Positions 6,661 to 54,100 of a DNA stretch of 64,000 nucleotides are shown here, in pieces. Position 1 is the stretch's first letter, and each line of letters opens with the position of its first letter. The notes under the pieces are model-generated. The model searched no databases, was not told the DNA's origin, and saw only the letters and a program-made list of their open reading frames with translations. The DNA lies in the NCBI GenBank assembly GCA_009746045.1, contig RPFO01000953.1, forward strand, positions 1 to 64,000. The letters are read 5' to 3'. The translations under genes were made by a program, and so were the position numbers. The stretch is from Mesostigma viride. Taxonomy: Eukaryota; Streptophyta; Mesostigmatophyceae; Mesostigmatales; Mesostigmataceae.

Positions 6661-7454
6661 TTGGATGTGACCCTTGTCTGCCTCACAAATTGAGGTATGT
6701 GCCGGCACACGCCTCCATTTCAATGATTCCCATGTACTGCCACTAGCCATTGCGACCCCCCCGCGACTTTGAACGTACTGGCGTACGCCCCCATGTGCCT
6801 GAACTGGGCAATTCAACCCTTTTTGCCTCACTGAGGTACTGTAAGTTAGGCATGCAATGCGGCCTCTTCAGCACAGTATGTGCTGGCACAAATCCCTCTC
6901 GCAAACCTCTAAAAACAATGTTGGCCCGAATCCAGTTGGCACGCCAGTTGGCTCAGGATCGGGAGGTGTGTTAGAAGGTCCCATGCTGATGTCCCCCCCG
7001 CCCCCTTCCGCCTCTTTCACTTATACCACCGCCCGCTAGCTATGCATGGGCGTCATGGGCCGTTCATTGCGGAGATTCACTATGGAGATGCTTTATGGAG
7101 ATTCACTATGGAGATGTGTGCGTAGATCCCCATTTCCGATGCCGTTACCTCCCCGTTTCTAATGCCATCACTTGCACCCACGACTTGCAACCAGTTTTCC
7201 TCCTCTCTTTGCTCGCCCCCGCCCCCTCCCCACCACCGCCACCTGCCAGCTAAGCATGGGCGGCACCTGCAACCCCTTCCCCTTCCCACACGATGCAGCA
7301 ACGGACTCCCCACTGTTTTGGACCCAATTCCTCTCTCCTCACACATCTCGTACAATTCCTACCCCACCCCACCTCTTTTGCTGCCACCCACTCCGCCCCC
7401 CCCCCCCCCCCCCCCCCCCCCTCCAATCTGCCCCACCCACCCACCCAGCTAACC
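6661..7454 (+). other. Upstream region of the LRR gene with two decayed copies of its start-codon region
   Basis: No gene is seen here. The segment leads from the minisatellite into the LRR gene. Copies of the start context occur near 7025-7055 (GCTAGCTATGCATGGGCG) and 7243-7275 (AGCTAAGCATGGGCGGCA), and the real start follows at 7446 (AGCTAACCATGGGCGGCA). Each lies downstream of a C-rich stretch, the last being a 26-base C homopolymer at 7396-7421. A short duplication (GGAGATTCACTATGGAGATG) lies near 7070-7115. The region is presumed to contain the LRR promoter and 5' UTR, but no core promoter motif stands out. Confidence 0.6.
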
Positions 7455-10400
7455 ATGGGCGGCACGTGCTCTGGGGCAGTGCCCTCGCCTGAACACCTGG
7501 ATGGGGCGGTCCTGCGGCGGCTGAGCGAGGTTGGACCCGTGCTGCCCGACGCCCCCAACTGGCCGCTGCTGCACGCCACGATGACGGCGCGCTGCCGCCT
7601 GAAGCACGTGGTGCCTTCGCTGCTGCACTTGACCGTGCGCGCGGTGTGCGCCAACATCCACAAGTACCAGTGCGTGAAACCAAGCTCGCGTGTGGGAGTG
7701 GGAATTGTTGATGTGTGGAAGTAGGAATTGCTCATGTGTGGAAATGGGGATCGTTTGAGTGTGGGAATAGGAATTGTTCCAAGTGTGCAAATAGGAATTG
7801 TTCAAGTGTGCAAATAGGAATTGTTGAAGTGTCCAAATAGGAATTGTTCAAGTGTGCAAATGGGAATTGTTCAAGTGTGCAAATGGGAATTGTTCGGGTG
7901 TGGGCATGGGAATTGTTCAGGTGTGGGAGTAGGAACCCCTCTCTTTCTATCAAGGAGACAACCAGCGCATCTATATTTACACGCGGTTGGATGACTAGGA
8001 TATCTCTGTACAGGGAAAGCACGGCTGGGACTATAGCGCCCCTGGTTTATAGGAGGGTAGTGGTTGATGGGAGGGTTGTGCCTGGTTACCGTCGCTTGCA
8101 TGTATATATAGTACTTGTACTTGTACTGGTATATATGCTATTTATAGTATTGCATATATAGTAGTACTTCTAGTATATATGCTATGTATAGTATTGTATA
8201 TATAGTAGTAGAACTTTGGTACCCTATATAGTATTAGTACTTTGGTTGTCTCCTTGATATTCTATATACAGGGTTGTATTTGTATAGTTCTAGTGCTAGT
8301 ATATCAGCATGATTGTTTCTACAGGCGTGCTTGTCGAGTTTGTGGAGTGTGTTCCCTGGGGGGGGGATGCACCTCCCTGGCAACCCTAGTGATTGGAATT
8401 TATATTTGTATGTCCATTCCACTGCCCTTCTACTTGTTTTTGCCTCACCTCAATTCCACCCGCATTTTTCCCACCACCCCCATTTTGTCGTTTCGAACCC
8501 TTTGCCTCCCCCCTTCCTCGGCCCTTTCCTTCCCATTTCCTCGTTCCCTTCGCCTCGCCCCCAAAGCAGGAACCTTGATGTAGAACAGGCTCCACCACTG
8601 CACCTCCACTGCATGCTTCTCACGACCCGGATTGGCCACAATTTCCCCAACAGGGATATTGTGGTGCAACGTCGCCACCATCTCCCTTCCCATTCCCTCC
8701 CACTTTGTTTTGCCTTGCCCCCAGCAGGCGCCTTGTCGTCGCATCCCACCTCCACCAGCAGCGTTGACGCAGAGTTATAGTCACGCAGTCCCGTTGGGGA
8801 GCCGCGGAGCATTTACCTTTACCGGCAGCAGACCGGCAGCGTGGTACCCTGCTAGAGCTGAAACGCGCATCGTTTCAACGTTTAATAAGGACCTTACCCC
8901 CCCCCCCCCCCCCCCAAACACCACCACCACACACACACATTATCTCATTTGGCCCCTGAGCAGGAGGCTTGGAACTGCACCTTCATCACTTACCTTTCTT
9001 ATTATAAATTATATTTACCTTTCTTATTATAAATTATATTTACCTTTCTTATTATAAATTATATTTACCTTTCTTATTAAAAATTATATTTACCTTTCTT
9101 ATTATATTTTTACTGGCTGTGCGGGAACCTGAAAATGCCCTTCTTAATGCCCTTCTTAGTGCCCTTCTTAATGCCTTCTTAATGCCCTTCTTAATGCCCC
9201 TCTCAATGCCCTTCTTAAGGCCCTTCTTAAGGCGGCCCGATTACACCCAGTTCCCTATAATTTCTCGCTATTCACTCTTACCCCTGCCCTTCCGTACATC
9301 ATGCCCTCGAGCAGGAGTCTCGACAGCCTGCCCCCTGACCTTTGCCAAGACGTGTTCAACGAGCTGGTGCTCAACCGCCAGCTCAGCGTCGCCACGCTGG
9401 CCATCTTCCAGAGCTGCGCGCTCACCGTGATCCGGTGGGCGGGCGTGCCGGGCGTGAACGACGAGTGGCTGCGGTTCGCCGGATCGCAGGTGTGGCGCGT
9501 TCGTGGGAATAAGATTTTGTAATGGTAAAACTCCCCCCCCCCCCCCACCCCATCACATGACTTGCCCCGTTTGTCAAACCAGGTTACGATATCATATCAT
9601 GGGAATCTTTTCTTTCATGCTGACAGCGGTATGTGTACGTTTTCCATGTCAAACTCCCATGGCAGGCCTCGGCTCACTGGTGGGTTCAGGATCGGGTTTG
9701 CTGCTCTCTCGTTGTGTCGACGACTACCCAGGGCAACCTCCTTTGCCTTTTTCTTTTTATCTGGGAGTGGGGATGGGAAATTTGCTTGAGCATCGCGCAC
9801 CCAGGCATCCATTCATCCCAAGTGTCACACTCTCACGTATGCGCGCACGTGCGTGTATGCGATGTACGGCATGTGCGGAATATTCCCACATGTGTCCACC
9901 ACCCAGCCTGAACCCTAAACACTGAACCCTAAACCCTAAACCCTAAACCCTAAACCCTAAACCCTATACCCTAAACACTAAACCCTATACCCCGAACCCT
10001 GCATCCCCCACCCACCCCTATCACAGGACGAGCCCCGTTTGTCATGCATTAGGAGTGATAGGTAAAAACAGATTGGGTGTCGGAGGCAGTATATCCCAAA
10101 GCATGTCACAGTACAACTTAATGGTTGAATTTCTGACCCCATGCCTATTCCCATCGCCGCCTGTATCCCCGCACCTAGCCGTATGCAAGTACTCTGAAAC
10201 CAGGCCAGGCTGCTGGAGCGGGGCATGGCCCATCGCCCTTCTCCCATGCCCCATCGCCCTTCACCCATACCCATTCCCATTGTCTCTCACCCTTGTTTTT
10301 TTCGCCTTTGTTTTTCGCACCCTTGTTACTCTCGCCTTTGTTTTTCACACCCCACTTGTTTCCGCCTTTGCTCTCCAGCCCCTTGTTTTCTTTGCCGTTG

Positions 10401-13400
10401 TTTTTCACGCCCTTGTTATTTTCGCCTCCCGTGACTTGACTCTGTAAACTGTCACCAGACCGGCCTGCTGGAGCTGGACGTGTCCAAGTGCCGCGAGATC
10501 ACGGATGCAGGCCTGGCCCATCTTCGGAGCTGCACCAAGCTGCGGTCGCTCAGCGTCAGCTCCTGCATTCAGATCACTGACGCAGGGTTGGCCTTCTTGG
10601 AATGTGGGTCACCAGAGGATTGAGTGGGGGGTAGGGAGCAGAGTGGAGGGGGTGGCGGGGTAGGTGGACCAGCGCGAGGTTCGCCTTTTGGGAATGTGCG
10701 TCAGCGACCGGTGTTTTCTTAGGGAGCCGGATGCAGGGAATGGCGGGGTACGTGGACCAGCGAGGGGTTGGCCTTTTGGGATTGTGGGTCAACGACCGGT
10801 GTTTCTTAGAGGGCCGGATGGAAGGGGTGTCAGGGTACGTGGGCCGGCGCTGGGTTGCCCTTTTGGGAGTGTGGGTGAGCGGTTTGTGGTTTGTTGGCAA
10901 TGTGGGGAATGCAGGGCTCTGTTGCGGCCCATAGGCAATGTTCTACTGGCGTACCATAGTAAGGATGCAGGGCTTTGTTGCGGGCTGCTATGCATGAAGG
11001 GCCCACTATAGTATGCATGCAGGGCTTTGTTGCGGGCTGCTATGCATGAAGGGCCCACTATAGTAAGGATGAAGGGCTTTGTTGCGGGCTGCTTTGCATG
11101 AAGGGCCCACTATAGTATGCATGAAGGGCCCACATTCCCGGCACACAGTTTTGGTGACGGCATCAAGAAAAAGGGTTCTGGGTGGAGCGATTGCCTTCTG
11201 TGGGGGTTGTGGGTGGAGGGCGCGTCTTCCCAGAGCGTCTATATTTGTAGATAATTGTATAATGGGGGCGCTACGAAGCATTTGGAAAATTATGAGCCTA
11301 TGGAGGATCTTCCCTTGTAGGCGCCGCGGCAATATTTGTCACCACCTTACCGCGCTGTGGCACGATCCGTCACCCCCTTACGGCCACCCCCAATGTGCTC
11401 GCGCCGTACCCTCCCCAACCCACGTTGGCAACGCCGCCCTTCCCATCCCACCCCACCTGGAACCGCTCCTCCCGACTAATCACTTCCACCACCTTGGCAA
11501 CTCTGCAGACCTGCCCAACACCCACAGCATGCCCACCCCCGACCTGCACCCTATGCCATCACATACCCCTTAATCAACTAACAACACGTAGACTGCATCA
11601 CCTACCCTTGGCCTTGGCCACTCTGCCCCAAAACACCCCACCCCATCCCACTGTGCTGTAGACCTGCCCAAGCCTGAGCTGCGTATCCTGATATGACCCC
11701 CCCCCCCCCCCCCCCCCAATTACCCCCCCCCCCCCCCCCTGTACCTTGACAAAAAATATAATCATACCACACTGCAGACCTGCCCGAACTGCGCACCGTG
11801 TCCATGGAAGGTTGCGACAACATCTCGAGCGCCTGCCTCGAGTACCTGCGCAAGCTGCCCCGGCTGGAGCGGCTGGACCTGGAGATGTCCAACGGGTTGC
11901 AGGGGGGGCTCGCGGCGCTGCAACGTGAGCGGGCCTAGGCCTAGCAAAAGCTCTTGGTTCTTGGCTCTTGGCTCTTGGCTCTTGGCTCTTGGCTCTTGTT
12001 TTGGGGCCTTGGGGAATGTTGTGGATGCGGCTTCCTTGGAATGTGCTGCGGCCCGCAGCACTGTAACGTGATCGGGCCTAGCGAAGACTTTTGGGTCTCG
12101 TTCTCCCCACGTTTGATGTCGCGGCCTTCATGCCCTTCCCAGTCGTTTGCATTCGTCGTCCATACGACATATGTGTTGTCCCTTTCATAGCGCTTCCCAC
12201 GGTTGCTTGGTTGCGGCAAGCAACCAAGCAACCGGTTGGCCTGGTTGGCACCCCCCTGATCCATATCCCCATCCCCATCCCCAGGGCGCACGTCCACATC
12301 CACCTGGTCCGGCCTTGCGCTCGTCACGGCCAGCCGCACCTCACTGGATCTCTAGTAGTCTTTCGTCTGCCAACGAATCTGCCATGGACCTTGCCCTTGT
12401 TTCAACTGTGTGCTCCCAACAGACATGATCAGCCTCAAGTCGCTGGATATCGGGTGGTGCAACAGCCTGGAAGACGGCAACATCCACCACCTGGAGGGTA
12501 CGCACCTGCTTGACCACATCGCTTATTGTTGTTAGTACTGTAGTAGTATATCATTATTTTGAAGTGCCTGATTACGTCATTATTTGAATTATATTTTTGG
12601 CCACCCGTGTCCGTCTTGTTTTTTACCGCCCATCAAAGACAAGGTTTTTTGACCCTCTTTGTGTCACCCTTGTCTTGATGGGGTGTGATCGGGGACCTCT
12701 CCTTTTCGAGTCCCCCCTCGGTCAGGGTCCACCAGACGGGGAGTGGGGACTGCCCTCTTCTCTCTTGCGATTTCCACTCCCCCCCGCCCCCCGCCCCTTC
12801 ACAAAGCTCTTGTGTCCAATACCCCACACTGGTGGTGGTGTCTGGCGCCGGACACTCTGTGGTTCTGTGGTGCCGATTGCCATTAATGCGCACTCCTTTA
12901 GGTAATTATGGAGACTAGAGGTGTGCGCTGTGTGATGCTTTTTCCGTCTTCCAGCATTAACGGGCCTGGTGGAACTCAACGTGGCGCGCTGCAAGCTGGG
13001 CGAGCATGGCGTCGCCTTCCTGCAGGGTGAGCGAATCAGCATGGGCTTGTAAGCTAGCCATATGAGTTCTTATTAGTTAGTTTCGGCTACGTCCTCTAGG
13101 TTTGTACGTCACACTACAACCAGATTCCAGCCGTGGTCAACCTGCCTACTTCGGCGATACTAGAATATCGCGTAGGTCCGTGCGTAGTACTCCTGCGCAC
13201 TTAGGTCTAGTGGTGAGTCATCTTCTATAGATTCAGCAATATCGGACATATTGGCACCCCTCTCCGGTAAAGAGGTTTTTCGCAGTTGGGCTGTTTCGAA
13301 ATGTTAAGTGAGATGCCTTCGGATCAGGAGACTCACACAGCCGCGAAATCATGCCAAAGGTCCTATGTTCGATTCCTTGCTGGTAGCTTCTAGGCTTTCT

Positions 13401-16400
13401 TACTTTCTGTGTTCCGCGGAATCTCAGATTTGGGCAGCTAGTGTTTTCACGTTTGTTGCTTTCTGACGTCAATATGAGTTGTTGATCATTAGCATGTGCC
13501 TATAAAGTAGCGGTATGGCTTCTTAGTAATTAGCATGTGCAAATAAACTGGCTGTTTGAGCTCCTGGTGTGGGACTTTCCTGGTGTTGTTGCGGCGTGGC
13601 CTTCCTGCTGGGTGAGCGCACCTTGAAACCGAGAAAAATAAATTAGATACAAGAAACATGTCTTTGAAAGTTATGTGTGCTAGAATTAAGTGGCAGGACC
13701 CGTCTGACAGGGCAGTGAGTTATGAGGTTGTGTTGTGGGCATGCCATTTTTCTTTTTGGGGGGAGGGGGGGGGGCGGAATACCTTCAGGTTGTATTTGCC
13801 TTCTGTGATTGCTGGCCAGCATGCTAGACCTCGCTATCTGTATGCCGCGCGACCAAGCTGTTGGTCATGTGCTCATTGTACCTACCACTGCATCAGTGTT
13901 TAAATCACTTTGCGACAAATTGTTTTGCGACCCAAAAACAAGGTAAAAGTTTATAATTGTTTTTAACAAGGCATAACTATTTCAACAGGGACATTGCGAC
14001 GCGGCGCTTTTTTAGTATGATCCGATGAAATTCGTAGAAAATGTAGTAGACAAGTACAGTGGCATGTTTGCAAGCCAAAATTAAGCAAATTAGTAGAAGT
14101 TTGCGAGGTCGATTCGCAAAGTACTTGTCGCAAAGTAATTTTGACCACTATGATGGTACCTACCTAAACCGCTAGTTACAAAGTATCGGTGCATCTGTGG
14201 AGGCATGCACCATTGAACCGATCTGTCATGCATGAGCCTCATCTGACATGGTATTATGTCTTGACCTGGCATAGGCCTCGCGTATGTCTCTGTTTACATG
14301 ACGGTTTCGTGTTTATCTACTTGAAGGAATATCCTATTGTACCTTAATGGTCCACCAATCAATCGCTTACTAGCATGACCCTCTTAACCCACCGGTTGCT
14401 CATGACCGCATCCGTTTTCTGGCTCCCGTCACATATGCGCCTCGATATGATTTAATAACATGATGACAATAATATGAGTATGATATTATTATTGGCGCAG
14501 GCATGACGCGCCTGACCAAGCTGTCCCTCATGGGCTGCTCGGTGAACGACGCCAGCATGAAGGTGATCTCGCAGTTGAGGGAGCTGGCGGACATCAACCT
14601 CGAGTGGTGCGAGATCACAGACGAGGGGATGAAGAGCGTGGCAGGTGAGGGTTGACAGCAGTGATTGTAGCATTGAAAACGACAGGGATCCGTGGCAGCA
14701 TGACTCTGTGGCACAAGGGTGTGGGGGGAGGGGGGGAGCATTTAGTGAAGGATAGTAAAAATGCTGACAATAATGATCATTATAATCTTGCAGAGTTGAG
14801 CTCCTGGCAGAAACGTGACATACGGCATTGGCCTTTTGCCATTTGGGGGGGGGGGGGGGGGGGTGATTGAGTCTTTGCTCCTGTTGGTTTCCTGCCCCAT
14901 GTGTGTCATGGACGCAATGTTTATCAACCTTGTGCTGTTCCCTGTCACTGCCATCTGTGATGGGGTACCTTTCTTCTGGAACTTTACTGCCGCGTGTGCT
15001 TCACGAACTTCAGTGCACGTTGCTGGCCAATCTTCCCTCTCGGATCCTTGCCCTTGCCGCCGCGTGCGCAGTGCTGACCCACCCCTTGCTGTTTTTCTTT
15101 GCCATGGTCCTCTCTTGCGGAATGTGTCGTTGGAACCGTTGCGCGCTTTCCTATGAGCTGTCGATACACGCCGGGCTGACAAGCCTTTCCTCTCTGGCCC
15201 ACGCCCCTTGGCTCTGGCGGCTGTGTGCGCAGTCCTGACCAACTTACGGGTGCTCAACGTGGCCTACACGGGCATTACGGATGCCGGGATCAAGCACATA
15301 ACTGGTGGGCATGTACTTGGTATCGTTAGTAGTTTTGGTGTCATTGTTAGCTTTGTATGCCATCAAGTGCATGGCTGGTGGGCATGTACTTGGTATCGTT
15401 AGTAGTTTTGGTGTCATGGTAAGCTTTGTATGCCATCAAGCACATGGCTGGTGAGCATGTACTTGATTAGCTTGGGGTGGCATCGGGCACTTTGCCGGTG
15501 AGCATGTACTATAAAGCTAGCAAACACTACGACCTATAAGCCGCTCAATCAGCGGCCTCTTGTTCCCGCATTCACGTATAGAAGAAACTCTGTTCAAAGA
15601 ACCCCGATTAGGTTTGCTTCGTGTTGCAGCAAGCACATTGCCGGTGAGCATGGATGCACGATCACTGTTGAGTATTGTGGTAGCCACCAGCATTCTTGCT
15701 GTTGCTGTTGCTCTCTCTCATTAAAAAATTAAATTAAATTATAACATGCCTCTGTTGGGGGGTCATGTAGCACATATTCCATGTTGGGTGGGTGGGTGGT
15801 TTCTCTCTCATCAACCAGCACATTCGTGGCACGCAAGGCTGTACTTGCCTGATGGCACGGAAGAATGGACTTTTTTCAGCTTTCGGTTCCATGCGTTGGC
15901 TTCTGTGTTGCTCTCGTTTCCCAGAACGGTCGTTCCAGCGAATATTAGCTATCACCAGTTAATATCTGCTAATGTCCGCTAGTTGTTTGTCAAGTTCCTC
16001 ACAGCCCAAAGCAGGCCAGGGTGACAGCCGTTTTCTTTTCCTATTTTTCAACTGCTTGTGTTCTTTGTTTGCGTTTCTCCCCTCCCTCCGTCTCTGCCAG
16101 GTCTCCTAAAGCTGGAGGTGCCCACCATGGACTGTTCTTGTTGGTTGTGTTGTTGGTGGTGATGGTGTGAACGAGCGTTAGTACTCATGATCTCTCTACG
16201 TGGTTGTGACAGGCCTTCAGCAGCTGGAGGTGCTCAATCAACGTGGACTGTTGATAACGAGCGTTAGATCGTTGTCAACATCATTCTCTCCCCACATTTT
16301 CGTGACAGGCCTTCAAAAGCTGGAGGTGCTCAACATGGACTCATGCCACATCCGCGATGACGGCCTCAAGCACCTGCCAGGTGAGATAGGAAAATCCTTA

Positions 16401-19400
16401 ATATAAAAATAACGTGTAAGCGAGGCAGGGTTTTAGTTAGTGCTAGGTGCAGTCGTGGGCTTGGCGCTTGGTGCACTTGTGGGCTTGATGCTCGGTGCAG
16501 TTGTGGACTGTGTCGTACATGGCGTGCAGCGCTGTCTGACATGAGCATGGCGTAGACTAAGTCAACTGGTACTGCATCATGTGCTTTTAATGAATGGCAT
16601 AGATACACGTGAGCTGGCATATGTCACGGTCTATGCCATGGTTGTCGTCATCTGAGAGATTCGGCATGAGACGCTCCACGGTCCACCAGGGGTGTCATTT
16701 TGTGCAGTACGGCGAGGTCCCGTCGCGTCACTGTGTGTAGCACGGAGCGGCTTCGACTCGCTGCACATGGCTTCTTGGCCTGTGGCACACCAACCGCTTT
16801 GTAACGGGCCGCAATCGATCGTACGTTGATGGGCTGGATGTGTCGGCCGAAAATGATGCAAAAAATGGGCTGGCCGTGTGGCCGCCTCCCCTTAGCTTCC
16901 CTTAACCCTTAACCCTTAACCCTTAACCCTTAACCCTTAACCCTTAACCCTTAACCCTTAACCCTTAACCCTTAACCCTTAACCCTTAACCCTTAACCCT
17001 TAACCCTTAACCCTTAACCCTTAACCCTTAACCCTTAACCCTTAACCCTTAACCCTTAACCCTTAACCCTTAACCCTTAACCCTTAACCCTTAACCCTTA
17101 ACCCTTAACCCTTAACCCTGAACCCTCAGCCCTCAACCCTCAACCCTTAACCCTTAACCCTCAACCCTCAACCCTCAACCCTCAACCCTTAACCCTTAAC
17201 CCTTAACCCTTAACCCTTAACCCTTAACCCTTAACCCTTAACCCTTAACCCTTAACCCTTAACCCTTAACCCTTAACCCTTAACCCTAAACCCTTAACCC
17301 TTAACCCTTAACCCTTAACCCTTAACCCTTAACCCTTAACCCTTAACCCTTAACCCTTAACCCTTAACCCTTAACCCTGAACCCTCAGCCCTCAACCCTC
17401 AACCCTTAACCCTTAACCCTCAACCCTCAACCCTTAACCCTCAACCCTTAACCCTTAACCCTTAACCCTTAACCCTTGTCGCTGGCCCTTGAGCATCGTG
17501 CTTCTCTGATTCCCGAATGATGTCTTCTATCTGATGCGTATTATATTGTATCTGATTCACATGTCTGATGCATACCCTATCTGATGATTCTGTCTCAAAA
17601 ATCGGGGACTCTTGACTCGTTCGTGATCCCAGTTCAAGCTTTGCTATATAAATACCTGGTGTGCTCTGGCCGCCTCGAATCCTGCTGTTGAGCCATATAT
17701 GCTGCCGTTATATTGTACTGTCTCCGGTATTGCCGCTATTGTCTTCTTGACATATGCTGTCGTTCCGCATTCCTCGGTGGCCGCCACGGCCCTCACTGGC
17801 CATTACCCACCTGCCCTTACTCAACCTGTCGTCACACCGGTCTGCCGTGTGCTGTGCCATGGGTGTCATGCAGCCCTCACCAACCTGCGCTCGCTCGACC
17901 TATCCGACACGGCGGTCGGCAACGCCGGGATGGTCCACCTATCAGGTGAGGCGGCGCGCACTCTCGATGTTAGGTGGTGCGGCACAACTATCCTCTGTCT
18001 CGGTGGGATCGAGAGGGCGCACTGCAGGAGTACAATAAGCATTCTTCAAGAGCCTTCTTCCAGGCCCCTTTCGTTCTGAAGCCCAGGCTTTTTTTTTTGC
18101 CAAAAGGTTTTTTTCTTTTTTTTTCTTGGTACTGGTTTATCGGGCAAGTCTGTCAGGTTCGGGGTTGGGCACGTGTGGCTGGTGGGCTTGGCTGAGTATA
18201 GCACGGATGCTTGTCCTGCGCACGGATGCTTGTCCTGCGCATGGATCCTGAGTAGAGCTCCACAGTTCGGAACCCGCAGTGCTGGTGTGGCAACGCACCG
18301 ACAACGGCACGCCGATCGCGTATACTATCCCATGTATCGCATTATCTATGTATTATGTATTATGTATTATGTATTATGCATTATGTATTATGTATTATGT
18401 GTTATGTGTTATGTGTTATGTGTTATGTGTTATGTGTTATGTATTATGTATTATGTATTATGTATTACGTATTATGTATTATGTATTATGTAGTATGTGT
18501 TGCATGTATTATGTATTATATGTTGCATATAGTATATGTATTTCATGGGCAGGCTCGGCTACACCACCCTGTTCATGGCTCGTTGGTCGCCCATGTGTCA
18601 GGTGCTAGCATCGTACCAAAAGATCGCTGCCCCTCTCTTGTCACCTCGCGAGGCTTCATGCCCCACCGCGTACGAGAGCGCAAGGCTGCAGCAAACTGTT
18701 TTAGCATCCTCGCCACCTCTTTGTTGATTGCCTCGATCCTGTCCCTGTTTGTACCGCAGCGCTAAAGGGCCTGGAGGAGCTGAGCCTGAGCTACACCAAC
18801 GTGAAGGACGGCGGGCTCATCCCCATCGGGGCCATCAAGTCGCTCGTCTCCCTCAACCTCGATTCTCGGAACATCACCGACCACGGGCTAGCGTGCCTGA
18901 CCGGTATGCGACTTGTTCGCCCGCTCTATGTTCGCCCGCTCTATGTCCATCTGCTAGTGAATGGATGGATGAACTATTTTTTGCCATTCCCTCAACCTGG
19001 ACACGCAAAACGCGATCGACCATGGGGTGGTGTGCCTTACGGGGACGTAACGGTGTTAATCAACTAGTGAATTAACAGATGCCCTTTGCAACTGTACTTT
19101 TCGTCTATTGAAGAAACAAATGCCCTTTCTCCGTCCGACGCGAAACCTCGATTCGTGAAACATCACCGACATGGGCTAGCATGCCTGGCTTGTACATGCT
19201 TGAAATTCTTAACTAAATGCTACACTATCCATCGGAACATGAGTAGAGGCACACACCACAGGCGAGCATGCCTGACCGGTGCATGCTTGCAATGCCCCTG
19301 ACCGGTGCCTCTGTGTTTGTGTACCCCCATCCATCATGCACAGGCCTGCAGGGCCTCACCTTGCAGGATCTGTGGTTGTCTACTTGCGCACGGGTTTCCT

Positions 19401-22400
19401 ACGTTTGCATCGGCCTACATATCTACGTTGTCTGGGTCGTGCGCAGGATTGCATGGCCTCAGTTTGCTTGATCGGCTCGTTCTTTTCACTTGCGCATGTA
19501 TTCTTGCCCATGTCCATGTACGCGCAGGCCTGCACGGCCTCACGTCGTTGGATCTGTTCGGCTCTGCCATCACCGACCGCGGCGCCGCCCACCTGAAACG
19601 TACGTGGGCAGCATAAGATGTCGCTGCGGGAACTGCTCAACGCCCATATTATAAGCGGCAGGTTTCATCATTCATCATTTTTCTATCATTGCTATTGAAA
19701 AGAGGGAGTATGGACAGTAGTGTGGGTATAGTGCCCCACATTGGGCCCCGTTGTCGGCGCGAGAGCAGCATCAGAGGGAGCCAGGATTGTCGGTAGTGTG
19801 GGTGTCCTATCGCACTTTATTGTGATATGATCGTTCGAGGGATCCTGTGATCGACGATACCATACGACCGAGCAGCATAAGAGGGTGTGAGGACGGTGGC
19901 GCGGGTGTCCTATCGCACGTGGTTGTGATACGATTATGTCATTCCATTGACAAGTATTGTTTGGACGGTGCGGTCGTCAGTGTGTTCAGATCAGATCAGA
20001 TCAGATCAGATCAGATCAGATCAGATCAGATCAGATCAGATCAGATCAGATCAGATCATGCCAATGACAGTCCGCACCGTGAGAATCCTGGCGTCTCGAC
20101 ACATCGCGTTACCTGGTACTGGATTCCCCGACGACCCTACTACTAGTACACTACTTTCCCCCCCCCCTAGTGCTAAGCTGCTATCTTACTGCCTAGTAAA
20201 CTATCGATGGTTTACTGCCTAGTAAACTTTGAAAGTCTAGCTTTGAAGTGAACGTACTTTCTTCCCCAGAATCGTGGATCTCTGAACATAGTTTCTTTAT
20301 AGTGAGATGGAAGGGTAGCCGCAATAGCTAGGTGATAGGGTTCACGTGACATAGCTTTTGAGGCCGGTGCGGCCTGATCCGGATCAGTCGTGGCCAAAGC
20401 TTTGGCCAGTTTTTCTTGGCCAGGTGGCAGGAGCTACGTTGAGATATAAACCTGCCACTGTCTAGGTTTCTTTGTTAATGACGTAGTGATTAACTAGATC
20501 TAGATTCTTTCTGTCACCCAATATGTGATCTAATAGCCCCGGAAGCCTTACGTAAGCTGCCGGCAATGAGAACGCCACATTGCGTCATTTGTTCAGACGC
20601 AACATTTGCGTGGCGAAAAAATGCCGTCCGGGCCAAGGGCGCATGACACGCAAAAAAGACAAAAACAAGCCCACCTAGCTAAGGCCGGCCTCTTTTCTTT
20701 TTCTGCCCACCCTCCCTGTTTGCGGGTAAGGCTAGCCTTTGCCAAGCAATAATTGTTCTCATGAGCATATAAGTGTTTCCATGAGCATCGGCGGCCCGGA
20801 TGTGGCCTGTCTTTTGTATGTGCTCCACTCATTGTTTTGATAAAGAGTTTTGTTACCCTGGAGTTCCACGGTTAATAGAATGCATTTTTGTTGTGTAAAT
20901 CAAGCCACTACTGTGGCCTCGCCTCTTCCCATGCACCACCCTGTTGACCTCTCTGGCTGGCCTTGAACCGTCTGGTGGTATGGTGGTCGGGGGCTCACCC
21001 ATCACCCGTCACCTGTCATCATCCTCTGGTGTTTTGCGTTTGGGGTCGGTGGCAACAGATTTCAAGAAGCTGTGGACGCTCGAGCTATGCGGCGGCGCGT
21101 TGACGGATGCCGGTGTGCAGCACATCCGAGGTACTGGGGGGGATTGGGGTTGGGAGTAGTTGGGGGGTGGGGTCGGGGGTGGGATATAGGGGGGGACGGC
21201 GGGGGGGGGGCGGGGGGCAGACCACACCTCGCTTATGTGTACTGTGATAATGATGTCAGTCTTCCCGTCCTTGGACAACATGGTGTCAGACAAAGTGATG
21301 TCATTCTCTGCGCCCAGCGCCCTTGTGTCCAACCGGGCACCATCTGCAGACCGGACCGCCCTCGCGCCGGCCCCCCTTGCGTCATTGCCCCGGGCTATAT
21401 CATCGCAAGGCAAGACCCCATTGCCCACCTCGTATACTCCATCGCCCGATCTACCCCGCCGGCACGCACTTGCCGCGCGCAGGCCTGACCTGTCTCACCT
21501 CTCCTGTGGTGTGGTGCCACCCATTGTGCCCTTTTGTCCGCCGCTATTGTGCCCTTTTGTCCGCCACTGTTATTTATTGGCACGCAGACCTGACCTCGCT
21601 CACGTCGCTCAACTTGTCGCAGAACCACCGGCTGTCGGACGCGTCCATGCCCATCATCAGCGGTGGGTGGGGCTGTGATAGAACTTGATTAGTACATATC
21701 TATTGAGGAAGCTACGTTCAAAAGGGTCATCGTAGTTTGGGTATAAGCAGACAGGGACATGACAGCCGCGTCGTGTGTGTGTTGACCACTGCCTGTTGGA
21801 TGTGTTCATGCCTATCATCCCTGGTGGTTGATGGGACAAAATGGGTAGGAAGGTGATGTGCCCGTTAGATTTCGAACGTAATTGTCATGGTCCTGTGTTC
21901 CTGTATCAGCAGTCTGGTTGCGGGTGGCTCCAGCTTCTGTTGCATCGTGCTGGCGGGAGATGTATCTTTGACACAGGACTTATCATTTATCTCTCAACCC
22001 ATATAATGCTTCCAGCTTACAGACAGAATATGGCAGAATTCGGCAGAATATTGCTGCCATTTTCTCGCGCAGCCTGCTGAATTCCTAAAGTCTGGTCAAG
22101 ATGTTTCCGGCCTCGTTTTCCCTGGTTTGCTTTGCCCCCCCCCCCTTCCCTCCCCCCTTCCCGCCCCCCCCCCCCCCCCCCCCCCCCTTCCACCGCCCCC
22201 GAAAATGGTTGCACGGTTGCTGCCGGCCTCTGCCCACCCACAGGCCTGACCAACCTCGTGTCGCTCAACTTGTCGCACAGCCGGGTGTCCACGCTGGGCA
22301 TCCAGTACCTGAAATGTGAGTGGAGACGATTGAAGCCGTGAGCAGGTTACGAATGAGTATGAATGTGGCTATGAATGTGGCTATGAATGTGTGATGCATG

Positions 22401-22779
22401 TCAATGCTACTTCTGCAGTATGTAACCCTTAACAATAATGTATATTTTCATAACATACGAAAGTAGGGATGTGCGAAAGTGGGGTGGGGTATGTCCCAAA
22501 TCTGTTACTTAAGTTTGTGACGTTGCTATCAAAACTGCGCCTGTGTTGCATATTTCTGCATCATGTTTCTGTTGAGCTGTTTCTGCTTGCTTCTGGCGCC
22601 GCAACTCCTGGCGCCTCAACTTTTGGCGCCGCAAATTCGCCCCACCGGACATCATGGGTTCATGCTTGCTTGCGCACATTTCTGTGTGCCCTGTCGCCAC
22701 ACCACAGCGCTGCCCCACCTGACGTCGCTGGCGCTGCACGGGTGCAAGGTCTCCCGCGCGTCAGTCGAGAAGCTGAGGA
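7455..22779 (+). CDS. LRR protein (plant RNI-like LRR family) with N-myristoylation motif, at least 16 exons
   Basis: Exons: 7455-7669, 9315-9489, 10459-10603, 11778-11924, 12423-12497, 12955-13026, 14501-14644, 15233-15304, 16309-16380, 17874-17945, 18760-18903, 19528-19599, 21059-21130, 21588-21662, 22244-22315, 22708-22779. They give about 565 residues. The start ATG sits in AACCATGGGC and opens MGGTCSG: Gly2 and Ser6 fit N-myristoylation and Cys5 could be palmitoylated, so attachment to membranes is inferred. An N-terminal domain (SLPPDLCQDVFNELVL, PGVNDEWL) precedes about 16 LRRs of 24-25 residues with the pattern LxxLxLxxtxITDxGlxhL. Order and length match the plant LRR family typified by Arabidopsis At1g15740 from myristoylation motif to last repeat. 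The first intron is phase 2, the second phase 0, and all later ones phase 1 at the same point of the repeat. Function is unknown; the fold suggests a protein-binding scaffold. The last about 6-13 residues are not certain. Confidence 0.9.
7685..7935 (+). repeat. Intronic minisatellite, ~23-bp unit
   Basis: About ten copies of a 20-24 bp unit, AGTGTGCAAATAGGAATTGT plus TC, run through intron 1 of the LRR gene. The first copies are G-rich variants (GTGTGGGAGTGGGAATTGTT) and the middle ones are nearly identical. The array stops at the left end of the TIR element at 7948. Confidence 0.85.
7948..8259. mobile_element. MITE-like element with perfect 16-bp terminal inverted repeats
   Basis: TATCAAGGAGACAACC at 7948-7963 is exactly repeated in inverse orientation at 8244-8259 (GGTTGTCTCCTTGATA). 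The 280 bp between are non-coding and AT-rich in the right half, with many TATATAGTA motifs. The outermost TA at each end could be a TA target duplication, as in Tc1/mariner-type MITEs, leaving 14-bp TIRs starting TCAAGGAG. The same end plus its CAGCGC extension occurs in short dispersed copies at 36.7 and 41.0 kb. The element lies in intron 1 of the LRR gene. Confidence 0.75.
8985..9110 (+). repeat. AT-rich tandem repeat, 24-bp unit
   Basis: Five copies of a 24-bp unit (TTACCTTTCTTATTATAAAT plus TATA) sit in intron 1 of the LRR gene. The copies are nearly identical; the last two have small changes. Confidence 0.85.
9137..9236 (+). repeat. Tandem repeat, 12-bp unit TGCCCTTCTTAA
   Basis: About nine units of TGCCCTTCTTAA with minor variants (one short by a base, later ones AGGCCCTTCTTA) lie about 80 bp upstream of LRR exon 2. 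Confidence 0.85.
9903..9995 (+). repeat. Interstitial plant-type telomeric repeat (CCCTAAA)n
   Basis: About 12 heptamers of CCCTAAA, some degenerate (CCCTATA, CACTAAA, CCCGAAC), occur in intron 2 of the LRR gene. This is the complement of TTTAGGG, the telomere repeat of plants and many green algae. It is short and imperfect, so it is an interstitial relic and not a chromosome end. Confidence 0.9.
10640..10890 (+). repeat. Three ~90-bp copies derived from the LRR exon 3 / intron 3 junction
   Basis: The exon 3 end reads GGGTTGGCCTTCTTGGAATG then the donor GTGGGTCAC (10583-10612). Copies follow near 10675 (GGTTCGCCTTTTGGGAATGT), 10762 (GGGTTGGCCTTTTGGGATTG) and 10850 (GGGTTGCCCTTTTGGGAGTG), each followed by a GTGNGTNANCG stretch like the donor. 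They share further flanking sequence (AGCGACCGGTGTTTCTTAG, GTACGTGGACCAGCG). Confidence 0.8.
10910..11140 (+). repeat. Minisatellite, ~57-bp unit with GGGCTGCTATGCATGAAGGGC
   Basis: Four or so copies of a unit containing GCAGGGCTTTGTTGC, GGGCTGCTATGCATGAAGGG and CCCACTATAGTA lie in intron 3 of the LRR gene. The core GGGCTGCTATGCATGAAGGG also occurs in a different minisatellite at 53.6 kb in the cyclase gene. Confidence 0.85.
11947..11999 (+). repeat. Heptamer repeat GGCTCTT
   Basis: Seven units of CTTGGCT/GGCTCTT directly follow exon 4 of the LRR gene, within intron 4. Confidence 0.85.
15300..15510 (+). repeat. Tandem copies of the LRR exon 8 end and donor
   Basis: Exon 8 ends ATCAAGCACATAACTG with donor GTGGGCATGTAC. 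Copies ATCAAGTGCATGGCTGGTGG (15363), ATCAAGCACATGGCTGGTGA (15437) and a weaker one at 15482 follow in the intron, each with GGGCATGTAC or GAGCATGTAC after the pseudo-donor. Another partial copy (AAGCACATTGCCGGTGAGCA) is at 15632. The first two units are about 75 bp and nearly identical. Confidence 0.85.
15722..15800 (-). mobile_element. 3' stub of the RT-bearing LINE family, minus strand
   Basis: The plus strand reads (TTAAA)n, TTATAACATGCCTCTGTTGG, GGGGTCATGTAGCACATATTCC. Its reverse complement is the last ~60 bp of the LINE 3' UTR and tail seen at 39985-40070 and 59722-59790. It is a severely 5'-truncated insertion inside intron 8 of the LRR gene. Confidence 0.75.
16893..17477 (+). repeat. 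Telomere-like heptamer array (CCCTTAA)n within an intron
   Basis: About 83 heptamers of CCCTTAA (TTAAGGG on the other strand) run without interruption between LRR exon 9 (ends 16380) and exon 10 (starts 17874). A variant block (CCCTGAACCCTCAGCCCTCA followed by CCCTCAA units) occurs twice, at about 17116 and 17375. The offset is 259 bp, exactly 37 units, showing a higher-order duplication. One CCCTAAA unit occurs near 17285. The unit differs from the CCCTAAA repeat at 9.9 kb. Confidence 0.95.
18346..18530 (+). repeat. Microsatellite, 7-bp unit TATTATG
   Basis: About 24 units of TATTATG with GTTATGT variants in the middle lie in intron 10 of the LRR gene. Open frames through it (YYVLCIM repeats) are artefacts. 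Confidence 0.9.
19984..20057 (+). repeat. Pentamer repeat (GATCA)n
   Basis: About 14 units of ATCAG/GATCA in intron 12 of the LRR gene. GGACGGTGCGG before it and CCGCACCGTG after it form a loose inverted flank. Confidence 0.9.
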
Positions 22780-23144
22780 GTAAGTGCTTGCTTGCCCCAT
22801 GGCTCACGGGAGCCCCAGGGGGGGAGGGGGGGAGGGGGGGACGGACGGTGGGTAAAAAACTCAATATTACAAGACGTCACAGAGAGAAGTTATATCAAGA
22901 GGACCTATTGATACAGGGAACCTAAAAAAATTCTTTGTTGTGTATAATTAGCGTCTGGCGTGGTTGAGTATGGTTTGGTGTGGTTGTGGACTTGTGGCTG
23001 GTAGTACGCCTCGACCTTTCCGGATCTCTGTGTTCTTTTTTCTTTTTGCTGAGAAGGTCTACATGTTCCTCCGAGGCTGCGGGGGGGCAACCCTAGTCTG
23101 CTTGATCAGGCATTTGCTGCGAGGAACAACGTTGTCTGGAACCC

Positions 23145-25735: not shown

Positions 25736-25736
25736 G

Positions 25737-25776
<40 letters not shown>

Positions 25777-26706: not shown

Positions 26707-36263
<9,557 letters not shown>

Positions 36264-40950: not shown

Positions 40951-41000
40951 CTCCATTCATATTCATCATCCTCAACGAATCGAAAACGCGGAGAAGATAA

Positions 41001-48102: not shown

Positions 48103-51100
48103 ATGGCATGTCTGGGCCGCCTCGTTTTCTCGACCCCGGAGGGCAGAGCGGCGCTGGAGGAGATTCGGCGCAAGCGCAACCCGCCGCAGCAGGGGATGCC
48201 CATTGCGGCCATCATCACAGGTACGGACGCCGCCGCTTCCGTAGCGCAGGGACGAAGACTCTTATTTGTACAGCGGGTTGGGAAAAGTTAGATGCTAGAC
48301 GTGACGCACTGCCAAGGAAACCAGGAAACGACGTGCTGATGGAAGGTACTCTGGCAGGCAGCACGTGATTGATGCTGCTGCTAAGGGAGTTCAATTTACG
48401 CATGCAGCTGCGCTGAATTAAGGATAAGCCAGGCAGGTGGATGTTGGAGCCCACGCAAGTGCGCTTGGCATGGCGGGTGTGCCATGTGTTCCTGACCAGC
48501 CATCCTGGTGTAGCTAGTTACACCATTATTTGCGCATCCAGTTGGTGGAGGTCAGGTAGTCCGCGCGTGAAATAAGAGGGGAGGTCGTTTTGGATATGCG
48601 TGGAACACATTTCGGCAGGTATGCATGCAGTGGTCACTATACCGAGCATGTCCAGACCTTATATGTGCGGCATCGCAGCAAATACTTTACTTGATAAATT
48701 GGATGATCTTAGACCGTTGAAGGGGGCTGGCCTCTGTAGTCAAGTGGGTGAGTACGCAGTGGTCTTCATTACAGACATTCATGGACCTCCATACGGCATT
48801 AATTAATGGCATCTTGATTGTGCGTTGCCTTGCCAATCGGGTAGCGTTGGCTTACAACAAGCACAAAATCGCCATCAAGTGAACCCCTTGGCCGGTGTCA
48901 GTCTGTCCCTCCGCCACAAATCGTCGAGGGCTCCACGTCCTTTGCCCTCCTCCTCCCCTAATCGCACATGGCCTTGTAAATGTCATCTGCACCCTTGTCT
49001 GCCACTGCCTGAAACAGACTTGGAGGGCTGGATGTCCCTTGCTCTCCTCCTCCCCTAATCGCGCATGGCCTTGTTTATCCCATCCATCTATGCCCTTATC
49101 TCCCTCTGCCTGAAACAGACATTGAGGGCTCGACATCCCTGTGGGAATGGAACCCGGAGGTGATGAAGCGCGCGCTGGCCATCCACCACAATGTGAGCGC
49201 AGCACTTCTTGTGGCAAAGTGCGGCTGTATCCGCTGACATGTGGCCATCCATCATGTGAAGCGTGCGCTGGCCATCCACCACAATGTACGTGCGCGTGGG
49301 ATCGCCCTTGCCTCGGTGGCCGAGGAACCAGATGTGCATACCATGAATATAGTCAATATAGTAAATATCGTTACACCATAATTTATTTTTTCTCTTTTAT
49401 GCCTCTTTTTCCCTTTTCCCGTTCTTTCCCTTCTATGCCTATTTTATCCCTTTGCCCGTTCTTTCTCTCCTATGCCTCGTTCCCCCACTGTGCCCCTTCT
49501 TTCTCTCCAGTACAGTACTCCACTCCCTTTGCCCACTCTCCCGCTTCTATCACTTTTCTCCGGCACGGCATACCCATGTAGCTCATTTCCTTCCCCTTCC
49601 CCTTCCCCTTCCCCTTCCCCTTCCCCTTCCCCTTCCCCTTCCCCTTCCCCTTCCCCTTCCCCTTCCCCTTCCCCTTCCCCTTCCCCTTCCCCTTCCCCTT
49701 CCCCTTCCCCTTCCCCTTCCCCTTCCCCTTCCCCTTCCCCTTCCCCTTCCCCTTCCCCTTCCCCTTCCCCTTCCCCTTCCCCTTCCCCTTCCCCTTCCCC
49801 TTCCCCTTCCCCTTCCCCTTCCCCTTCCCCTTCCCCTTCCCTTCCCCTTCCCTTCCCCTTCCCCTTCCCCTTCCCCTTCCCCTTCCCCTTCCCTTCCCCT
49901 TCCCTTCCCCTTCCCCTTCCCCTTCCCCTTCCCTTCCCCTTCCCCTTCCCCTTCCCCTTCCCCTTCCCCTTCCCTTCCCCTTCCCCTTCCCCTTCCCCTT
50001 CCCCTTCCCTTCCCCTTCCCCTTCCCCTTCCCCTTCCCCTTCCCCTTCCCCTTCCCCTTCCCCTTCCCCTTCCCCTTCCCCTTCCCCTTCCCCTTCCCCT
50101 TCCCCTTCCCCTTCCCCTTCCCCTTCCCCTTCCCCTTCCCTTCCCCTTCCCCTTCCCCTTCCCCTTCCCCTTCCCCTTCCCTTCCCTTCCCCTTCCCCTT
50201 CCCCTTCCCCTTCCCCTTCCCTTCCCCTTCCCCTTCCCCTTCCCCTTCCCCTTCCCCTTCCCCTTCCCCTTCCCTTCCCCTTCCCCTTCCCCTTCCCTTC
50301 CCCTTCCCCTTCCCCTTCCCCTTCCCCTTCCCCTTCCCCTTCCCTTCCCTTCCCCTTCCCCTTCCCCTTCCCCTTCCCTTCCCCTTCCCCTTCCCCTTCC
50401 CTTCCCCTTCCCCTTCCCCTTCCCCTTCCCTTCCCCTTCCCCTTCCCCTTCCCCTTCCCTTCCCCTTCCCCTTCCCCTTCCCCTTCCCCTTCCCCTTCCC
50501 CTTCCCCTTCCCCTTCCCCTTCCCCTTCCCCTTCCCCTTCCCCTTCCCCTTCCCCTTCCCTTCCCCTTCCCCTTCCCTTCCCCTTCCCCTTCCCCTTCCC
50601 CTTCCCCTTCCCCTTCCCCTTCCCCTTCCCCTTCCCCTTCCCCTTCCCCTTCCCCTTCCCCTTCCCCTTCCCCTTCCCCTTCCCCTTCCCCTTCCCCTCA
50701 CCCGCACCCGCACCCGCACCCGCATAGGTGGTTGTCCTGGGAGCACAGAGTGAGTGCACTTGGGGCGCAGGCCCTTCTCTTGCACTCGTGACTTCCAGCT
50801 CAACACGGCGGAACCATCCTGCCATCCTTGCGCTCAAGCTCAGGAGCAGGCAACCACTCCCTGGCCACTCCGCCATTTATGCCGACTCCAACAGGACCAC
50901 TGTATCTGCTTTGTTTTGACTACCATAGCCTTTTTTTTCTAATTGACTAGCGTTGCCTTTTTTATTTGCTGGCCAATGTGTGGTCTTCCATGGCATTTGT
51001 TCCATGCGCCGCTGGCCAGGTCCCAATGTTTTAACCAAAACACGACCAGTGATGTTGGGAGACCAATGATGCTGCGACGAGGAATGATGTTAAGAAACAA

Positions 51101-54100
51101 TATCTATTGAAAAATTAATCGTCAACATCGATTTACTGCGTTGTTGTGCCTTGATCGTCCACCGCTGTGCCCAAGTGCCTATGTCAAGGCAAGTACTACT
51201 GCCTAATGACTCATCAAAAGTACATCCCCCCCTCCCCCCATGTTTAAGAATGGGGTCTGACGGAAACCTGAAATCAAATTCAGGGCTGAGAATCTTGAAG
51301 TTGAGACCTGTACGATCTTAAAGCTGAGGCGGTAAACCTGAGCACATAACCTATGTTGCGCCTACCGCTTAGCAGCCTTTTGTACCTACTTTAAGATCTT
51401 TTTGCCCATAACCAGCCCTGCGATCTCAAACCAGAAATTCCAAAATCCAGGGTCTCAAGATCTTAGATCTGGGAATCTTACGCGTGTATGGGGGGTTGTA
51501 GTAGTATTAACAATCTTTCTTGTTTTGCTTTGCTAGCCATGCAGTAAGCCCAGCCGCGGCGCGCTGCTGCCAAGTTCCATTGCCTTGAACCAAACCACAA
51601 GAACTGTTAGTCTTATCTTTTTCGTTTTGCTCGCCATCCCTGGAGACTGGGGGTGCCGTGCGCTGGTGCCCAAGTTCCCCTTATTGAAACAAAGGATACT
51701 AGTAGTCAATGTGAATATGTATATTGCTTATATATCTACGACTGTAAGTATGTCTTTGCTTGCTTGATTGTTATCCCTTGAGCCCAGGTGTGCCGCCTGC
51801 TCCTGCCCAAGTTCCACGGCTACGAATCTGACACGGAAGGGGACTCGTTCACGCTCATCTTCCACGACGCGCTAGACGCGCTGGGCTGGGCGATGGAGGT
51901 CCAACGCCACCTTCTCTTCCCCCTCAACCTGTTCTGCCACATGGGCATGCTCCCCGAGGGAGGCACCTCCTCCAAGTCCAAGAAGAGCTCCCAAAGCCGG
52001 AGCCATGGGGACGACGCCTACTCTGACTGGCCCGCGGAACTCCTGTCATACGGCACTGGCGCCGAGGTGGCCGACCCGACCAATGAGCACCGGGTCCTCT
52101 ACCGCGGCCTGCGCGTGCGCATGGGCATCCACAGCGGGGTGCCCGAGCGCGTCGTGGCCCACTCCAACGGGCGCCAGCATTACCGGGGGGCGGTGATGGA
52201 CATGACCAAGGCGGTCCAGGACGCGGCCGCGTCGGGCGGCCAGGTGCTCATGTCCATGGCCGCGTGGCAGGCGGTGGGCACGCACTTCCCAGGGATCATC
52301 TGCCTCCACATGGGTCTTCACGAGGTGGGCGAGAAGCTGCCACCTGTCCACCTCATGCAAATGGTCCTTGAGGAGACGGCCCACCGGGCTCCATTCCTCC
52401 CGCTCCGATCCAAGCAGCTCACACCCTCCTTCTTCGATGCGCCCTGCGCGGCCGACTGCTACGTGCACCTGCGGGCGCCGAGCGACCCCATTGTGATCGC
52501 GTTCATCTACGTCGGCCACGCAAAGACCCTGCGCCGGCGGCCAGGGTACCAGGAGGGGATCGAGCTCCTGGGGAAGCTCGTGCAGGAGCTCGAGCGCCGG
52601 TTTCAAGCGTACGAGGTGGAGGAGAAGGAGGGCAGCTACCTGCTGGCGTTTGCGTCGGCGGCCAAAGCGTCGTCCTTTGCCTTGAACCTGCAACGGGACG
52701 CGATGGCGCTTCCGTGGGCCGATGATCTCTTGGAACAGGAGGATGCCTCCGAGGTGCTCAAGCCGGTCACGGCCAGTGACGGCACACCGCAGCCAGATGT
52801 CCTTGTCTTCCGGTGGGCGGACAGAATTACACGGGCGTGCGGTTGTTCATGTTTTAGTATAATAAGGATTGTATGCCTGATTGTTGTTCTTGTTTGTCTA
52901 TTTCCCCTGCCTTAGGTTGATGATGTGCCATATCTATCCATGATTGATCAATATGTGGTATCCACTAATGATTAACATATACTGCAGTATCCCTGATTGA
53001 TTGATATGTAGTATCGATGAACGATTACTATATAGTATCCCTGTTTGATTACCATGTAGTATCCCTTATTGATGAATATATATATATATATATATTCATT
53101 GAGAATGATAGATAACGGAGGTGAATATATATATATTCTACTACCTAAGCATGCTCCATCCATCCACCTACAGGCCCCGCCTGTTGCTTGGCCAAGCGCA
53201 CGCGCATCGCCGTGCCTGTGCCATGTCATGTGGTTGTTTTCTGCTGATGGCTGGTGGTGTGCCACCTGCCTGCATGATAGCAGCCACTGCCTCTCTCACA
53301 CCCCTGCCTTTCCCTGCCTCTCTCACATCACTGCCTTTTCCTGCCTCTTCCTTCCAGGGGCCTGCGGCTGCAGATCGGGATGTGCCTGGCTGTGCCCAGC
53401 GACTGCCAGCCGCACCGAGCCACCGGCCGCGCCGCCTACTTTGGCCCCATTGTGAACCGCGCCGCGCGCATCGCCGCCACGGCGGCATGCGGGCAGACGC
53501 TGGCCAACGCGGAGCTGGTGGCGGCTGCTAGAAGAGAGGAGGGCGAGTTTATTTTCCGAGAGAAGGGCAGGTTCGACCTCAAGGTGAGCTGGCGGACGAT
53601 GCTGCATGCAAAGTAAGAGCCGGTGGGCTGCTACGCATGAAAGCTTACGCTGACCGATGGGCTGCTATGCATGAAGGGCTTACGCTGCGGTGGGCTGCTA
53701 CGCATGACAGCTTAAGCAGGCCGGTGGACTGCTACGCATGACAGCTAGCTGGCCGGTGGGCTGCTACGCATGACAGCTAGCTGGCCGGTGGGCTGCTACG
53801 CATTAAGGGCTTACGCTGGCCGGTGGGCTGCTACGCATGACAGCTAGCTGGCCAAAGAGCGTAAGCTTGTGAGCTTAGGCGGAGAAGGTAGCGGTGACCT
53901 GTTGACCGTTGTTTGAATGTGTACAGTTCTGGGGACTTGACTGTCTGTCCGGTCATCATCGGCGTACAAAAAAACTGACTGACGTACTGGCTAACAGTTC
54001 TGTGGGGATGGATGGCAGCCAGTTTGCCAATCGCGTGGAAGGAAGGGTGGTGCTTATTGTAGTGCTTGCAACATAAAAGTATACATGGCTTGCTGCTTGT

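Follow-up and report, generated by a model that had tools for sequence, protein, structure and literature searches.

The first 64,000 nucleotides of contig RPFO01000953.1 of the streptophyte alga Mesostigma viride (assembly GCA_009746045.1; 439.9 Mb in 2243 contigs), hereafter the window, carry three plus-strand genes whose introns contain direct, mostly decayed copies of the edges of their own exons. An earlier note on this DNA had described such copies in all three genes and had taken them for the outcome of intron growth by repeated tandem duplication across exon borders. We compared the copies with controls, both in the window and in a set of genes from elsewhere in the same assembly, within which all comparisons were made. 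The published genome of the species measures 441.8 Mb, with 24,431 genes and a mean intron length of 1141.9 bp; in the same source, 30.1% of the intron space is assigned to repetitive elements and intron length is linked to repeats (PMC6947507).

Exon-edge copies in the three genes of the window

Rebuilding the three gene models from the sequence gave 28 introns and 56 exon edges. The F-box/leucine-rich repeat (LRR)-like gene (7455..23652, + strand) is predicted to contain 17 exons and 16 introns, all of them GT-AG, with a spliced frame open to TAG. Homologues of its protein in plants are named F-box/LRR-repeat protein 14, and no Mesvir1 protein was found among the 85 matches listed (E up to 1e-60; best 7991 candidates scored); the predicted model thus rests on the open spliced frame, the GT-AG introns and the plant F-box/LRR homologues. 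For the uridine-kinase-like gene (PF00485; 26206..36263, +), the protein spliced from the rebuilt model is identical at 100% to the annotated Mesvir1|29530 across all of the model's 236 residues. Its exons lie at 26206-26337, 26474-26541, 26703-26777, 28613-28796, 29747-29777, 31156-31214, 32828-32901, 33537-33626, 34612-34673, 35589-35617 and 36153-36263 (+); the rebuilt model had nine exons (26707-36263), to which the annotation adds two upstream ones, and the exon numbered kinase exon 2 in the earlier note is 28613-28796. The adenylate/guanylate-cyclase-like gene (PF00211; 48103..54886, +) has five exons (48103-48220, 49119-49192, 51788-52812, 53358-53583 and 54511-54886, +), and its model equals, from residue 32 to the end, all 574 residues of the annotated Mesvir1|29533. 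Neither the annotated kinase nor the annotated cyclase protein contains an intron-side copy. An Rfam search of the window gave 0 matches.

Iterated masking mapped 21 copies at 14 edges of the window, all of those described below lying on the plus strand. In the LRR gene, the start of exon 3 (10459) has a copy at 10194..10237 that includes the acceptor side and finds its best match in its own edge (z 7.6), while the end of the same exon (10603) is repeated together with its donor in an array of ~88-bp units at 10632..10881 (period 88 and 2.9 copies in Tandem Repeats Finder, TRF), one copy of the exon end lying at 10765-10791 (z 8.2). Exon 4 is copied at both edges, its start (11778) at 11500..11535 (z 6.5) and its end (11924) at 12050..12077 (z 7.3). 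Copies were also found of the end of exon 6 (13026) at 13593..13618, with GTGAGC retained (z 8.4), of the start of exon 7 (14501) at 13842..13873 (z 7.1) and of the end of exon 8 (15304) at 15430..15460 (z 9.2), the latter inside an array of 73-bp period (15289-15465, TRF). Two edges have two copies each, namely the start of exon 9 (16309), at 16103..16133 (z 10.3) and at 16206..16249, where tgacag is retained (z 11.6 with the exonic and 13.0 with the border-spanning probe), and the end of exon 11 (18903), at 19159..19187 (z 10.0) and 19250..19286 (z 10.1). The series is completed by the start of exon 12 (19528), copied at 19338..19373 with gcacag replacing gcgcag (z 9.9), and the end of exon 14 (21662), copied at 21785..21830 (z 9.1; 6.4 with the border-spanning probe). 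The examples that had been named among LRR exons 3, 4, 8, 9, 11, 12 and 14 are therefore supported. For exon 1 only the start was borne out, through one upstream decayed copy of the start-codon region (original 7455) at 7246..7270 (z 7.3; none in the inverted control), its end failing to reach z=3; the start of exon 2, suggestive by eye, did not reach z=3 in any edge test. The exon 1 copy sits at a start codon and not at a splice site, which suggests that splicing itself is not required for copying, unless a 5′ untranslated intron lies there.

The kinase signal is nearly confined to the start of exon 28613-28796, where three copies (at 27597, 28332 and 28497) were found, with matches at 27597..27619 (z 4.7), 28332..28368 (z 8.8) and 28489..28535 (z 12.7; 11.4 with the border-spanning probe); weak signals come from the ends of that exon (z 3.3) and of exon 8 (z 3.1). 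In the cyclase gene, both edges of exon 2 and the start of exon 3 are supported. An array of 97-bp period (48926..49140; TRF, 2.2 copies) holds copies of the exon 2 start (49119), one of them at 49008-49039 (z 9.4). The end of exon 2 (49192) recurs at 49257..49295 with a donor-like GTACGT site (z 25.9; 97% identity over 29 nt), and the start of exon 3 (51788) at 51643..51678 (z 5.4).

Hit rates in 91 introns

The full sample comprised 91 introns and 182 edges, made up of the window genes and of kinesin, guanylate cyclase, chaperonin (CCT) and dynein genes, so that sampling outside the window covers motors, guanylate cyclases and chaperonins. Non-window exons were found by a Pfam search of the assembly, and introns were modelled from abutting domain coordinates. 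The Pfam rows used, of those listed, were 88/129 for kinesin, 14/41 for cyclase, 32/58 for CCT and 12/44 for dynein; they were chosen as abutting neighbour exons within the retrieved stretches, rows that did not abut or lay outside yielding no intron. Introns with a splice-model score <7 were dropped (kinesin/guanylate cyclase 2/40, CCT 2/21, dynein 1/7), and three exon pairs, one in each of these sets, gave no splice model. Two guanylate-cyclase introns (L062 and L063) belong to close paralogues and have one copy in common by descent, so these events are not independent.

In the window, 40 nt of exon edge were aligned to the own intron and compared with 100 dinucleotide shuffles; in the full sample, a border-spanning probe of 30 nt of exon and 10 nt of intron was aligned to the own intron, the controls being the inverted probe and a swapped one, i.e. 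the same probe on one other intron per edge. The z-scores derive from shuffles; more reliance can be placed on the inverted and swapped controls. Long introns were searched over a limited length, namely 1500 nt on the side under test for the border-spanning probe and for a 150-nt exon probe, 3000 nt for the edge tests of the kinesin/guanylate cyclase and CCT sets and for a decay list of 50 copies, and 4000 nt for the dynein exonic test, the test of 434 intronic tiles (16 low-complexity tiles skipped), the measurement of unit against spacing, the repeat coverage and the LRR best-match test.

With exonic probes, 15/56 window edges exceeded z>3 in direct orientation vs 3/56 inverted; with border-spanning probes the figure rose to 20/56, against 3 inverted and 2 swapped, so the exon-edge copies are real. 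Over all 91 introns, z>3 was reached by 51/182 direct, 3/182 inverted and 2/182 swapped probes (direct vs inverted, Fisher p about 8e-14), and z>5 by 38 direct and by no inverted or swapped probe. The comparison of edges with their own introns against shuffled ones, which had been proposed as a check, was thus passed with two further controls added. When the LRR gene was excluded, 36/150 direct vs 2/150 inverted edges remained. By group, the border-spanning rates (z>3) were 15/32 in the LRR gene, 2/16 in the kinase, 3/8 in the cyclase, 21/62 in kinesin and 3/14 in guanylate cyclase genes, and by intron length 0.19 below 500 nt, 0.20 at 500-700, 0.33 at 700-1000 and 0.40 above 1000 nt. In the 38 kinesin/guanylate cyclase introns with good models, copies (z>3) were detected at 15/38 donor and 4/38 acceptor edges, with 0/76 inverted, 1/76 swapped and 2/75 exon-interior controls; the 19 CCT introns had copies at 3/19 donor and 1/19 acceptor edges (inverted 1/38, swapped 1/38, interior 1/37). 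Pooled over these two sets, exon-interior probes exceeded z>3 in 3/112 cases. Intron growth by tandem duplication across borders, as proposed for the window, thus recurs outside it in kinesin, guanylate cyclase and CCT genes.

Anatomy, decay and extent of local duplication

With a probe of as much as 150 nt of exon, z>4 was reached at 22/170 edges (inverted 1/170, swapped 0/170). All 22 of these strong matches are fixed to the edge under test, starting no more than 4 nt from the border, and the majority span part of the probe; no whole exon with both acceptor and donor was found among them. The youngest copies run past the splice site into the intron, which means that the duplications span the border. 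In case L039, the original and a copy 70 nt further on are identical over 23 nt of exon and 59 nt past the border; at 140 nt there is a third copy, slightly decayed (70-bp unit). In case L050, a 28-nt exon tail with GTGAGT repeats at 88, 171 and 254 nt (88-bp unit), and the young cases L053 and L056 likewise cross the splice site into the intron. One candidate for comparison, L078 (contig C622) as a second allele of L056, was discarded as uninformative, being of nearly the same sequence beyond the first 500 bases. We also observed that G000:C622 is a nearly exact repeat of a C2 kinesin gene (C2:6329800-6335200) and that C1641 and C887 give paired CCT matches with identical scores, which suggests that these are leftover redundant contigs.

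Old copies, defined as those under 95% identity (24 donor, 18 acceptor), show an identity of ~0.8 in the aligned exon part and of 0.68 (donor) and 0.63 (acceptor) in the splice hexamer. Over the 6 nt beyond it falls to 0.36/0.34, and over the 12 nt that follow to 0.25/0.31, against a background of 0.25. This is the profile expected if selection holds the original exon and splice site while the copy drifts, the flanking intron drifting on both sides. Of the splice dinucleotides, GT is retained in 15/24 and AG in 11/18 old copies, near the neutral expectation, and selection preserving or destroying decoy splice sites was accordingly rejected. The 50 listed copies are spaced at 47 to 1016 nt, a broader range than the 80-200 bp that had been given for the tightest sets, and 13/50 of the spacings are divisible by three (hand count), without enrichment. 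The statement that the true exon always stands at the distal end of a series is largely a consequence of searching inside introns. We also considered that selection keeps the exonic part of the units short, as a Kolmogorov-Smirnov test indicated (p 1e-5) when spacing was taken as unit length (five exonic lengths hand-set); with the unit measured in the five youngest cases, the mean exonic share was 0.47, and the claim was dropped.

In the paralogues L062 and L063, the exons are 98-99% identical and the decoy copy is common to both, whereas the numbers of nearby repeats differ, so that the process looks recent and ongoing. Two other guanylate-cyclase paralogues, L064 and L065 (G000:C1945, ~8 kb apart), also have exons 98-99% identical, with introns of 1152 vs 490 nt alignable just at their first and last stretches, which would mean that either the introns turn over very fast or the exons undergo gene conversion.

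Duplication is generic across non-coding DNA and not specific to borders. Randomly placed intronic 40-nt tiles are duplicated as often as edges (z>5 in 49/317 vs 26/166), and of the 434 tiles 74 gave direct vs 6 inverted matches. Within 1 kb, 405 direct vs 4 inverted repeat pairs were counted in 215.5 kb of retrieved and window sequence, pairs in arrays being counted many times. Of 78.3 kb of intron, 19.2% lies in direct local repeats (inverted 0.1%, shuffled 0.4%), a figure that includes short-period satellite (TRF period up to 12; 6.5% of intron bp); in exons the count is 92/30,099 bp. Longer introns are covered more fully (rho 0.61), the share being 0.26 in those above 1 kb. The reading as a habit of exon borders as such is not supported: since intronic tiles are copied at an equal rate, and introns are rich in direct local repeats, border-specific duplication is rejected as the main reading. 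At borders the trace can still be read, since selection keeps the exon and its splice site from changing.

Other repeats of the window are noted here as observations in their own right. Large short-period satellites lie in the introns at 26778-28612, 49193-51787, 29778-31155 and 16381-17873, the units being CT/CTCT (x138), CCTTCC (x188), TGACATTGCT (x47) and CCCTTAA (x83). Among TRF rows of period up to 12 and span >=60, some of them redundant, 15/23 lack AG on the coding strand, which may possibly reflect selection against false acceptors; AG-containing units are, among others, TCAGA (LRR intron 12) and ACAAGGGG (L050). An 8-bp satellite, TCGTCCCC, fills positions 1-6660 (~6.6 kb, 844 copies in TRF) directly upstream of the LRR gene, and telomere-like CCCTAAA and CCCTTAA arrays lie in LRR introns 2 and 9 (9907-10000, 16899-17477). 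By eye, a non-LTR-retrotransposon-like reverse transcriptase frame, with what we take to be a YADD-type motif, was seen at 37500-39940 (+), and a similar retrotransposon-like copy at about 59800-61900 (-).

A probable mode of intron growth and its alternatives

The explanation that we regard as very probable is that frequent short local tandem duplication throughout the non-coding DNA of M. viride lengthens introns, and that units straddling a border leave recognisable copies. Local duplication would often affect units between tens of bp and a few hundred bp long in non-coding DNA; duplications within exons would be removed by selection, and those within introns would make the intron longer and then fade. 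A unit lying across a border would give the intron a second exon tail with 5′ splice site, or a second 3′ splice site with exon head. If the original outer splice site stays in use, the protein remains as it was, and the inner copy can decay about neutrally, its splice site with it. Border events would remain recognisable long after intron-internal ones have faded, because selection freezes the original exon and splice hexamer. Border-anchored direct copies, their generic intronic counterpart and one-sided decay were all directly observed, splicing at the outer site is suggested by protein-family continuity and by the annotated proteins of two genes, and the duplications may have arisen through break repair or slippage; the ten isolated two-copy cases have junction overlaps of -8 to +4 nt, as either slippage or fill-in end joining of staggered breaks could leave.

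Several results weigh against this explanation, or at least against its universality. The border-spanning rate is lower in CCT genes (6/38) and weak in dynein (1/12 edges), where six heavy-chain introns taken as a later test set gave 0/12 edges with exonic probes; the two short upstream introns of the kinase gene have copies at 0/4 edges, and introns <500 nt have a mean direct-repeat coverage of 0.00. Moreover, many copies have a matched unit that does not fill the spacing, which calls for a further step, be it non-adjacent copying or a subsequent deletion or insertion.

Duplications targeted to exon borders, e.g. by transcription-coupled or splicing-linked DNA damage, would explain why every strong whole-exon match touches the border and why donors exceed acceptors outside the window (23/63 vs 8/63, p 0.003). 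However, intron-internal tiles are duplicated just as often, a generic process sparing coding sequence would likewise yield border-touching matches alone, and the window shows no donor excess but the reverse order (8/28 vs 12/28; p 0.10 over all genes); we therefore keep the donor excess as a mere hint and regard targeting as unlikely. Slightly less likely still is that the copies serve, or until recently served, as alternative exons or splice sites. About 60% of the old copies do retain GT or AG, and some donor copies hardly differ from the original (L039, L050, cyclase exon 2), but the matches are incomplete and tied to a single edge, the retention is about that of neutral decay at 80% identity, the annotated kinase and cyclase proteins are without copies, and spacings that are multiples of three are not enriched.

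The copies in the LRR gene could also be taken for remnants of the duplication of LRR exons, many of which are modules of 72, 75 or 144 nt, in one phase and encoding similar repeats. The adjacent edge was nevertheless the best match among all LRR edges for 15 of the 16 copies tested, which means that they are not relics of LRR repeat evolution, and the same pattern occurs in the kinase, cyclase, kinesin, guanylate cyclase and CCT genes; repeat-unit duplication is thereby refuted as a general account and very improbable for the LRR gene itself. An origin of the repeats in transposable or introner-like elements, which a repeat-rich genome with long introns tied to repeats might favour (PMC6947507), is equally improbable, as edge probes hardly ever matched the one other intron on which each was tried and the local repeats are nearly all direct.

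The preferred reading, generic local tandem duplication, has likenesses to several known systems. Intron gain by tandem genomic duplication, reportedly the subject of works by Gao and Lynch (2009) and Hellsten (2011), likewise involves local duplication of coding sequence and splice sites, and splicing out the extra copy can preserve the protein. It is an established route of intron gain, with cases in Drosophila (PMC2891723), but there an exonic segment with AGGT sites gives rise to a new intron (PMC3443670). In M. viride the unit spans an existing border, consisting in the young cases of exon tail and intron head with the copy inside the intron, and an existing intron lengthens. Small tandem duplications from staggered-break repair are said to have been described among rice insertions by Vaughn and Bennetzen (2014). 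In mouse and human cells, small tandem duplications arise from fill-in end joining at staggered breaks, and these are short, direct, adjacent copies (PMC8355091). The M. viride pairs are similarly direct, and the ten two-copy cases lie at or near adjacency; many other pairs are not strictly adjacent, and, unlike break-repair duplications, many are several copies deep with spacing >100 bp. Introners are dispersed copies of one element, associated with introns genome-wide. The edge copies are also intron-associated sequence and, to judge from the sampled genes, would be genome-wide, but they lie in their own intron and hardly in a swapped one, the same unit being all but absent from the unrelated introns tried (one other intron per edge; no genome-wide unit search was made). 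In exon duplication, as with mutually exclusive exons, a second exon copy stands in the neighbouring intron; exon sequence is here copied into the adjacent intron too, but as partial matches anchored at one exon edge. In the open-licence full-text literature, outside which most subscription journals fall, we found no account of existing introns lengthening via border-spanning duplication, nor of decayed exon-edge copies as a genome-wide feature, which does not prove their absence.

The growth of introns in the absence of transposons is difficult to follow, as a duplication loses both its copies to decay. At an exon border one copy is frozen, so that the number, age and place of events can be established for each gene, and this record is available in a streptophyte alga with long introns (PMC6947507). 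It is quite possible, if somewhat short of probable, that intron length in M. viride is set mainly by local tandem duplication against decay and not by transposons; long introns would then be palimpsests of which the recognisable 19% is the young part, borders would be a genome-wide fossil record, and they would repeatedly offer the spliceosome decoys in near-identical context that must be rejected. The young cases L050, with three extra tails bearing the same GTGAGT, and L039, with one exact and one nearly exact copy, are natural experiments that bear on how the spliceosome chooses among several identical sites.

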